A stretch of 64,000 nt of DNA. Origin: Akkermansia muciniphila (GTDB taxonomy: Bacteria > Verrucomicrobiota > Verrucomicrobiia > Verrucomicrobiales > Akkermansiaceae). The notes under the pieces were generated by a model that ran no database searches, was not told the DNA's origin, and worked only from the letters and a program-made list of their open reading frames with translations. The stretch lies in contig CAMCUY010000006.1 in assembly GCA_945879075.1 (NCBI GenBank), positions 1 to 64,000 on the forward strand. Reading direction: 5' to 3'. Shown in pieces: positions 17,609 to 21,503 of the stretch (position 1 is its first letter; every line of letters begins with the position of its first letter). The translations under genes and the position numbers were made by a program.

Positions 17609-20600
17609 TCAAGCGTATCCCAGCCACGGTCCCAGCCATTTCTCGGCCTCCTGCAAGCTGATCCCCTTGCGCCGGGCGTAATCATCGACCTGGTCCTTCT
17701 GCAGCTCGGAAATGGCGAAGTAATGGCTCTCCGGATGCGAGAAGTAGAGCCCGCAAACCGCCGCGCCCGGATGCATCGCGCAGCTTTCCGTCAAGGTCAC
17801 GCCGGTCTCCGCCGAAGCACCTAGCAATTCGAACAGCGGCGGCTTCTCGGTGTGGTCAGGCTGCGCGGGATAACCCGGCGCAGGACGGATGCCCTGATAG
17901 TTTTCATGGATCAACTGGTCGTGCGTGAGCTCGTCCTCGGTTTCATACCCCCACTCGACACGCGCCTTGTGATGGAGAAATTCCGCGAACGCCTCGGCGA
18001 ATCGGTCGGCGATGGCCTTGACCATGATCGAGCCGTAAGGATCGATCTGCTTGTCCAGTTCGTCCGCGAATTCGTGCGCGCCGTGGATGCCCACCACGAA
18101 GCCGCCGACATAATCGGGCGTAGCGGCGATCACCGGTCGCCGCGAGCCAGGATCCCCCAAAAACTCCCAATCCACCAGCCCCGCCGCTTTCGGGTTCCCC
18201 AGAATATAGCTCCGCTGATTCCAATAATCATCCGCATCCCGGACAATGTGATCATAAGACTCTTTCTGCCAAAGCGAGCCCTCGCGGCCCAACAGAATAT
18301 TGATTTCCTTGGCCGAAGCCGACTTTATTCCCTGCAAAATCTTCGACAGCGAATAACTCTCCCTGGGCTTGATCAGGAAATGCACGTGATTCGGCATTAC
18401 ACACCATGGCCCCAGGTCATAATGCTCACCGTCGAAATGAAACAACGTGTTTTTAACAATATCCGCAATCTCGGGTCGCTTCATCCAACATTCACCATGC
18501 CCGGCGTGAAGCGCGGTTTCCATCCGCTCGTTGTAAAGGCCTTCGAGTTCGTTTTTGAGTTGAGCTGAAAGAGCTGCGTTTCCCGCGTCTTCGGCTTGCT
18601 TGTGTTTGAGAAGGATTTCCTGCTTTTCCTGCTGATACTCGGTAAGGACGGATTGCGGGAGTGAATCAGCGAGCCGGAAGGTGATGGCATAGGTGGCTCC
18701 GTCCTGGTGCCAGTGAGGAAGATAGCCTTTGTCGCTGCGGGCGATGGATTTTCCGGGGTTTAGGAATGACGGGGCCATTCGCGGCGACCGGTGATCGCCG
18801 CTACATGGCGCCACCCAGTCGGCCAGTGCGACGTTCGGTTTTCCCGAGTCCTTCTTGAGCTGCTGGCGGAGACTGTGGAAACGCATGCGCTCGGTCGTCC
18901 GGGTTTCGTCGCTCCAGACGATGACGTCGTCACCTTCAGCATTTGCAGGGAAGAATCCGTAGATGCCTTCCGCCCGGAAGCGGTCCTCGGCGATGATCCG
19001 GTCCACCCAGCCCATCGCATCCTGATAGAGCTTACCGGCCTCAGCCGCGCCCTCGGCGTTTTTTGTTTTGAGAACCTTTTTTTCCCGGTCCCACACGCCG
19101 CGCAGTTCCCAGGCGTGGAAGAACGGCGTCCAGTCGATGAACTTGGCGAGCTCTCGCAGTGAAGGGCTTTTGATCGTCCGTGTGCCAGTGAAGGACGGCA
19201 CCGGTGGAGTGTAGTTCAACCAGTCGAACTTCGGCCCTGCAGCGCGCGCCTCAGCGAGTGTAAGGGTTTCTTTTTTCGGTCCGCCGAGGAAATTGTCGCG
19301 GAGCTTCTGCTGCTTCTCACGATTTTCCTGGGCGAAGGCATTGCGTTGGTCTTTCGAGAGCAGCGAGGTGGTCACCGGCACCGAACGCGAGGCGTCGAGC
19401 ACGTGAACCACCGGCCCGGAATAATGCTGCGCGATCTTGATTGCGGTGTGCGCGGCGGAGGTCGTCGCGCCACCGATGAGCAACGGCACCTTAAATCCAA
19501 GCCGCTCCATTTCCTTGGCGACATGCACCATTTCATCGAGCGACGGCGTGATCAGGCCGGATAGACCGATGACATCCGCCTCGAGCTCCTTGGCTTTGGC
19601 GAGAATCTTGTCACAAGAGACCATCACGCCCATGTCGGTGACTTCGAAGCCGTTGCAGGAAAGCACCACGCCGACGATGTTCTTGCCAATGTCGTGCACG
19701 TCGCCCTTGACCGTGGCGATGAGGAAACGGCCCGCCGAGCGGCCGCGTTCGGCGAGTTTGAGCGCCTCCTCATCCGTGAGCGCCGGGTTCTCCAACTTGA
19801 TGGCAGCGATGTCTCCCGCGAGAAATTCCGCCTTGTCCGCTTCCATGTAGGGGAACAACCACGCGACCGCCTTCTTCATCACCCGCGCGGATTTCACCAC
19901 CTGCGGCAGGAACATTTTCCCGGCTCCGAACAAGTCGCCGACCACGCCCATGCCATCCATCAGCGGGCCTTCGATCACCTTGAGCGGACGCACGTATTTC
20001 AATCGCGCTTCCTCGGTATCCTCGTCGATGTATTTGTCGATGCCGCGAAGCAGCGCGTGTTCAAGCCGCTTTTCCACCGGCTCATCGCGCCAGGACAGGT
20101 CTTCTTCGATCTTCTTGCCACCGACGTTTTTATAACTCTCCGCAAGTTCGAGAAGCCGCTCGGTGGAATCCTGGCGGCGGTTCAAGAGCACGTCCTCAAC
20201 GCATTCCAACAGGTCTTTCGGAATCTCGTCGTAAAGCTCAAGCATGCCGGCGTTGACAATTCCCATGTCCATCCCCGCCAGACCGGCGTGATAAAGGAAT
20301 GCGGAGTGCATCGCCTCGCGAACCTTGTTGTTGCCGCGGAAAGAGAAGGAAATGTTCGACACGCCGCCGGAAACCTTGGCACCGGTCAGGTTTTCCTTGA
20401 TCCAGCGGGTCGCGTTGATGAAGTCGAGCGCGTAGTTGTTATGCTCCTCGATGCCGGTGGCCACGGTCAGGATGTTGGGGTCGAAGATGATGTCATCGGG
20501 ATTGAATCCCACTTCATCCACGAGAATCCGATAGGCGCGCTCGCAAATGCGGATCTTCTCTTCATAGGTGGCCGCCTGGCCCTTCTCGTCGAAGGCCATG

Positions 20601-21049
20601 ACGACCACCGCCGCGCCGTAGCGCATGATGTGGCGGCCCTGTTTCTTGAAATTCTCCTCGCCCTCCTTCAGCGAGATCGAGTTCACAATCCCCTTCCCTT
20701 GAAGGTATTTCAGGCCTTCCTCGAGGATTTCCCACTTCGAGGAATCCACCATGATCGGCACCTTCGCGACGTCCGGCTCACCTTGGAGCAGTTGCAGGAA
20801 ACGGCTCATCATCGCCTTACCGTCGATGAGGCCGTCGTCGAAGCAGATGTCGATGACGTTCGCGCCGTTGGCCACCTGTTGGCGGGCCACCTCGACGGCG
20901 GCTTCGAGGTCACCCGCTCTAACGAGTTTCGCAAACTGCGGAGAGCCCGCGACGTTCGCGCGCTCGCCGATCATCAGGAAGCGCTTGTCGGAGGTGTGGT
21001 TGTAGGCCTCGGTGCCGGATAGACGGAGGGCGTGGGGAATGGTTTTCAT
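17609..21049 (-). CDS. metH: Cobalamin-dependent methionine synthase, C-terminal half (pterin-binding, B12-binding and activation domains) carrying an in-frame RAYT insertion
   Basis: [15 protein letters not shown]-like start ([12 protein letters not shown]), [21 protein letters not shown]12 motif [28 protein letters not shown], activation domain [20 protein letters not shown]; about residues 749-976 are foreign to MetH. Confidence 0.95.
18120..18145 (+). repeat. REP-like GTAG hairpin, left end of RAYT element
   Basis: GTAGCGGCGATCACCGGTCGCCGCGA; internal hairpin GCGGCGA-tcaccgg-TCGCCGC. Confidence 0.9.
18779..18804 (-). repeat. REP-like GTAG hairpin, right end of RAYT element (inverted copy)
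   Basis: Exact reverse complement of 18120-18145. Confidence 0.9.
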
Positions 21050-21104: not shown

Positions 21105-21503
21105 CTATTGGGGAAAATTGATGACGTGGCGTTTGATGCCGTCGCGGAGAAGGATCACGTTGAAATTGATGAGCAGGCCCAGACACTTGTTGGACAAACG
21201 CATGTAGGTGTGAAGCTGGGCTTCGTGGATTGGAACGATTACCGAGACGGTTTTGACTTCAACAACGACGCATTCATCGACCAGAAGATCGATTCGATAA
21301 GCCTCTTCGTCCAGGTGCTCTCCTTTGTAGAAAACCTCGGTCGGAACCTGACGCCGTGAAGGAATGCCTCGCAAGAGAAGCTCCCGTTGCAAAGCCGCTT
21401 CGTAAACGCGCTCCAACAAGCCCGGCCCAAGCTCACGATGAACCTCCATCGCAGCATCAACAATGACGCCCGACAAGCTGTTCAGTTCATTCTTCGTTTT
21501 CAT
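21105..21503 (-). CDS. GxxExxY protein (PDDEXK-like family)
   Basis: [36 protein letters not shown]...[18 protein letters not shown]...[21 protein letters not shown]. Confidence 0.92.

Follow-up and report, generated by a model that had tools for sequence, protein, structure and literature searches.

Features of the metH Fusion Gene

The window, that is, the whole stretch of 64,000 nucleotides analysed here, comes from the genome of an uncultured member of the Verrucomicrobiota (Akkermansiaceae) and contains a metH fusion ORF at 17609–21049 on the minus strand. The ORF encodes 1146 aa without internal stops, and ORF and Pfam analyses identified it as a B12-dependent methionine synthase with a RAYT within its activation domain. 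According to Pfam and the alignment with empty-site MetH, residues 1–748 (18806–21049, minus strand) comprised the pterin-binding part, the B12-binding part and the first part of the activation domain, while the rest of the activation domain formed the C-terminal part (17612–18115, minus strand). A REPtron of 685 bp from REP to REP (18120–18804, minus strand) lay in frame between VAP and DYVGGFVV of MetH, as defined by its inverted repeats and the empty-site alignment. The two arms, characterized by repeat, copy and fold analyses, were 26 nt each, 100% complementary and spaced by 633 nt. The 5′ arm, GTAGCGGCGATCACCGGTCGCCGCGA (18779–18804, minus strand), was translated as CSGDHRSPR, and its perfect inverted copy at the 3′ end (18120–18145, minus strand) as SRRPVIAAT. 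Each arm folded alone as a GTAG-tagged REP-like hairpin. In the Pfam search of the fusion, Met_synt_B12 was interrupted by Y1_Tnp at residues 877–929 (E 6.3e-8), with 33.2 bits against a Pfam cut-off of 23 bits. A preliminary description of this DNA had proposed an in-frame RAYT/MetH chimera, and the open 1146-aa frame, the perfect 26-bp ends, the split Met_synt_B12 and the significant Y1_Tnp match of the insert all agree with it.

The RAYT core domain of 196 aa (18161–18748, minus strand) was delimited by HMM, alignment A1 and a structure match to E. coli TnpA-REP (4er8), which the profile of the RAYT group of this element also matched (E 4.5e-9). The HUH motif was PNHVH (18380–18394, minus strand), with both His invariant in alignment A1. 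The catalytic Tyr was residue 948 in SYILGNP (18206–18208, minus strand), which aligned with position 115 of 4er8 in the alignment and the profile match. Retention of both HUH and Tyr, claimed earlier, was confirmed by these alignments. A Tyr in a SYDH motif was rejected as the catalytic residue because the invariant Tyr aligned with 4er8 was that of YxxxNP. Hence, the MetH element possessed the HUH and catalytic Tyr of the Y1 core together with flanking inverted REP hairpins, as RAYTs do.

The segment from KPN to HG was 254 aa in the window MetH and 27–28 aa in about 28 relatives, in which the unoccupied site was a hypervariable loop of 3–5 residues. This agrees with the earlier proposal of an insertion into a tolerant loop, and these empty sites contradict the refuting case of a non-homologous domain at this position in all relatives. 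Independent assemblies, including the one-contig genome G004, carried the element, which speaks against an insert that a re-assembly would lack. Immediately upstream of metH was a small ORF (21105–21503), which we take to resemble GxxExxY proteins.

REP Copies in the Genome

The 17-nt REP core of the MetH element had 35 exact copies in the 2.39-Mb genome, and the reversed-pattern control had none. Among the 30 of these 35 copies that were examined, several occurred as +/− pairs 38–51 bp apart, as REPINs do. Accordingly, the MetH element was accompanied by the cognate genomic REP/REPIN population expected of a RAYT. The notion that each REP type identifies, one for one, the RAYT now found in MetH was only partly true: G001 carried a MetH guest of another RAYT type, yet had 37 copies of the REP of the window element, and G047 had an empty MetH site, yet 10 copies. 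Solo copies of this REP were also seen within open frames of other genes (L231, L239, L240 and L248), one of them UvrA-like.

Properties of the Host Proteins

A MetE-type domain was missing in 14 of the 17 genomes with an occupied MetH, the source genome among them. Two genomes with an occupied MetH, G031 and G001 (C30 and C21), had a 353-aa protein with a weak MetE-type domain. Similarly, the fused AlaRS was the sole AlaRS in eight of the nine genomes carrying one, the exception being G005, which had a second copy. The host dN/dS values were 0.02–0.25, and the activation-domain motif was mostly invariant across 29 occupied and empty MetHs.

In AlphaFold models, the fused and the empty MetH domain had the same elements on either side, with the insert between a helix and a strand. 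The fused model matched MetH reactivation-domain structures across the insert (2.7e-14) and, separately, 4er8 (3.1e-7). In this model, built from a shallow alignment, the pLDDT of the RAYT was about 80–94, the mean pLDDT was 72 and the pTM was 0.46; the confidence was moderate, and the C-terminal weak spots were similar in the empty-MetH control. Judged from their sequences, the RAYT-carrying host proteins look functional. A recent damaging insertion, one of the possibilities raised in the preliminary description, did not agree with these results, as MetH was under purifying selection, MetE was absent from the genome and the AdoMet motif was intact. A host pseudogene was rejected on the basis of the low host dN/dS and the open frames.

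Selection on the Guest RAYT and Its Probable Mode of Expression

The dN/dS of the fused RAYTs was about 0.09–0.13 in well-diverged pairs. Of the 116 fused elements, a pattern search found HUH in at least 114 and the catalytic Tyr in at least 111; three had visibly lost the Tyr (L173, L204 and L210). Terminal inverted repeats scored at least 16 in 72 of 99 elements, compared with a 95th percentile of 11 in the control with mismatched arms. The fused RAYTs therefore look to be under selection.

No SD-like start was found ahead of the RAYT core in the fused elements scanned. An ATG before the core was rare in the MetH, IspG and LeuRS elements and present in 9 of the 11 AlaRS elements. An internal start codon was thus rejected as a general mode of expression, and translation of the RAYT as part of the host protein would be the simplest reading. 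In the MetH element, the start-codon scan showed an internal ATG after the 5′ REP (18776–18778, minus strand), from which separate expression had been suggested. This was not favoured, since it had no SD-like sequence and was lacking in most homologous MetH elements, i.e., it was not conserved as a start. The fused RAYTs may be active as transposases.

Occurrence of Fused RAYTs in Other Genes and Phyla

The source genome contained three further in-frame RAYTs, in AlaRS, IspG and LeuRS. Of the 107 RAYT matches in 31 congeneric genomes, 57 lay in frames of at least 400 aa, none in frames of 320–400 aa and 50 in frames below 320 aa; as the seed of the census profile consisted largely of fused RAYTs, the fused fraction is inflated and not an unbiased estimate. 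In relatives, IS200-type proteins of this Pfam family were never in such long frames (0 of 22). The best 80 named loci, to which the host survey was confined and whose fractions are likewise not unbiased, placed the RAYT group in Akkermansiaceae and relatives, with further hosts in other lineages. These hosts were ValRS, FabZ and DinG in Planctomycetota; Sua5, ValRS and CarB in Chthoniobacterales; CCA-transferase, PriA and XseA in Kiritimatiellota; adenosine deaminase in Verrucomicrobiota and one gammaproteobacterium; and restriction/methylation proteins in Bacteroidota and others. The in-frame residence of RAYTs is a real, recurrent phenomenon, and the window element is not the isolated oddity for which it might have been taken.

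Within one host gene, the insertion point was identical in most members, the exceptions being one IspG, two ValRS sites and two MetH sites. Two species had RAYTs at both MetH sites; L095 (G062) and L096 (G064) each had two different RAYTs in one open MetH frame, of 1425 and 1452 aa, respectively. In addition, L100 (G061), L101 (G024) and L104 (G054) had a MetH insert of about 300 aa at about residues 407–437, which was unrecognised by the RAYT search, and in L103 (G050) MetH was split into several frames with inserts. The AlaRS of G047 (L255) was without a RAYT; where the RAYT lies in other AlaRS, it had an additional stretch of about 45 residues, which may be either a remnant or an unrelated insert. 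When the flanks of 38 stand-alone RAYTs were searched for host pieces, no out-of-frame RAYT was seen in a known host; such pieces were present only at L131, where an N-masked FabZ flanked the RAYT on both sides, and at L126, where one flank contained Sua5.

Turnover and Probable Movement of the Elements

In the tree of the MetH host part, occupied and empty species were intermixed, and at least seven changes were forced by well-supported branches. The site in sister species was occupied, empty, or held a different RAYT; for example, the occupied MetH of G000 and the empty MetH of its nearest relative, G047, had about 97% of their residues in common. Furthermore, the 684-bp insert was without any difference between G021 and G023, at a MetH dS of about 1 and a host identity of 81–85%. 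Outside the insert, the identity continued for no more than a few dozen flanking bases. Ordinary recombination is possible as the carrier of this RAYT, because a nearby block of 2.4 kb (L258 9514–11878, L259 1–2365), containing a stand-alone RAYT, was also 98% identical between the two genomes, with surroundings of 81–87%. For G008 and G051, the MetH bases were 96% identical and the flanks at the site nearly identical, and the RAYTs were different.

In the RAYT tree, elements from the same site of the same host gene grouped together, even when they came from different phyla, with 41 label changes compared with 110 for shuffled labels. Well-supported clades corresponded to MetH site A, MetH site B, IspG, adenosine deaminase and PriA, and 9 of the 10 AlaRS elements were in one supported clade. 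In G061, MetH site A held a remnant that was internally deleted and still in frame.

Comparison with Known Systems

The elements resemble the RAYT/REPtron (TnpA-REP) system in their HUH and Tyr core, flanking inverted REPs, genomic REP copies and 4er8-like fold. However, RAYTs have been described as single-copy, vertically inherited genes (PMC8049555), whereas in our study the stand-alone, single-copy, vertical habit gave way to in-frame fusion, several elements per genome and turnover at the site. The fused elements lie inside essential protein genes without a stop of their own, and their lineages keep to particular host sites and are exchanged among species. Palindromes in frame within functional genes have been reported before. 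Di Nocera (2013) found short in-frame REPs of the GTAG/CGTC type in genes such as those for tRNA synthetases and uvrA of O. terrae (PMC3733652), and the RPEs of Rickettsia are similar in-frame palindromes within genes (PMC10969869). Those encode 20–82 residues and no transposase, while here an entire transposase lies inside the host protein; the MetH insert, which encodes it completely, is not a short non-autonomous palindromic insert of the RPE type.

The likeness to inteins with homing endonucleases lies in an in-frame guest of essential genes, with conserved sites, a patchy distribution, empty sister sites and a DNA-cutting enzyme. Sporadic occupancy, site clades and exchanged guests fit the homing pattern as far as sequences can tell. 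The intein-like passenger of the preliminary description held as to lifestyle. The RAYT guest differs in that it has no splicing domain and stays in the protein, an HUH transposase replacing the homing endonuclease. IStrons are also transposase elements made harmless inside genes, in their case via a group I intron (PMC4227781). In a survey of TnpA-Y1 proteins, unexpectedly long ones were removed as fusions or errors (Quentin 2018, PMC6006769). In open-access PMC texts, we found no description of complete RAYTs that reside within housekeeping proteins.

Interpretation and Alternative Explanations

The reading that we prefer, with a probability of about 0.75, is that REPtrons live in frame within essential genes without being spliced out, and turn over much as inteins do; its parts on expression, spread and activity are inferred. 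A REPtron, i.e., a RAYT gene with REP ends, would occupy a surface loop of MetH that tolerates insertions, and would be translated within MetH. The fused RAYT domain would fold independently and may stay active on REP single-stranded DNA, maintaining the genomic REP/REPIN copies. When passing from one species to another, the element would enter the gene at the site it occupied before, and homing-like exchange via the conserved host flanks is the probable route. The guest would persist because its frameshift, nonsense or imprecise deletion would kill the essential host gene. A broader proposal, to which we give an even chance, is a widespread homing-like element class, in which RAYTs are permanent unspliced in-frame domains of essential proteins, each lineage being specific to a single site of a single protein and colonising empty copies of that site in other species and phyla.

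Rather than homing, the pattern might reflect neutral survivor bias: REPtrons would insert anywhere, and the essential-gene cases would be the in-frame ones that host selection could not remove, with no homing and no continuing activity. Host selection demands the frame under either reading, solo REPs are likewise in frame within genes (here and in PMC3733652), and the MetH site is a variable loop. However, the match of RAYT clades to particular sites even across phyla, a guest swapped faster than the host diverges, and the low dN/dS with catalytic residues and ends kept make this explanation rather unlikely. Purifying selection on the guest would also be expected of a domesticated insertion domain that gives the host a useful function, e.g., nucleic acid binding or regulation, and several hosts do bind nucleic acid (AlaRS, LeuRS, ValRS, CCA-transferase, PriA and XseA). 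This is improbable given the unrelated hosts MetH, IspG, CarB and FabZ and the sister species without a RAYT or with a different one.

Removal of the insert before function, by RNA or protein splicing (IStron or intein) or by DNA excision, would suit the intein-like choice of conserved genes and sites, and IS200/IS605 relatives excise precisely. For the MetH element, however, a group I intron or IStron was rejected, as an Rfam search found neither a group I nor a group II intron, and an intein was rejected, as Pfam on the fusion showed neither a Hint nor a homing-endonuclease domain and the intein end residues at the splice junctions were absent. Moreover, both REP arms were in frame and stop-free, which splicing would not require. 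We consider removal very improbable. The majority of the genomes are metagenome assemblies, which might suggest an assembly artefact or a pseudogene; this is hardly credible in view of the independent assemblies of many species, the one-contig genome G004, the absence of stops within the census fused frames and the low host dN/dS.

On the preferred reading of unspliced guests, tolerance in the finished protein would be a third route into essential genes, beside inteins and self-splicing introns. This reading would connect RAYT biology to the long-standing puzzle posed by palindromes that lie in frame within protein-coding genes, and it would give a reason for the frame-keeping of the guests. 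For annotators, RAYT-carrying proteins resemble fusions or errors and were discarded in a survey. Natural insertions of a large domain, as in MetH and the tRNA synthetases among others, are directly testable. Beside some fused RAYTs (L203, L204, L039 and L129), the linkers contained tandemly expanded peptides, e.g., PSTSSQ, TAATTAAT and repeated REP peptides, all in frame.
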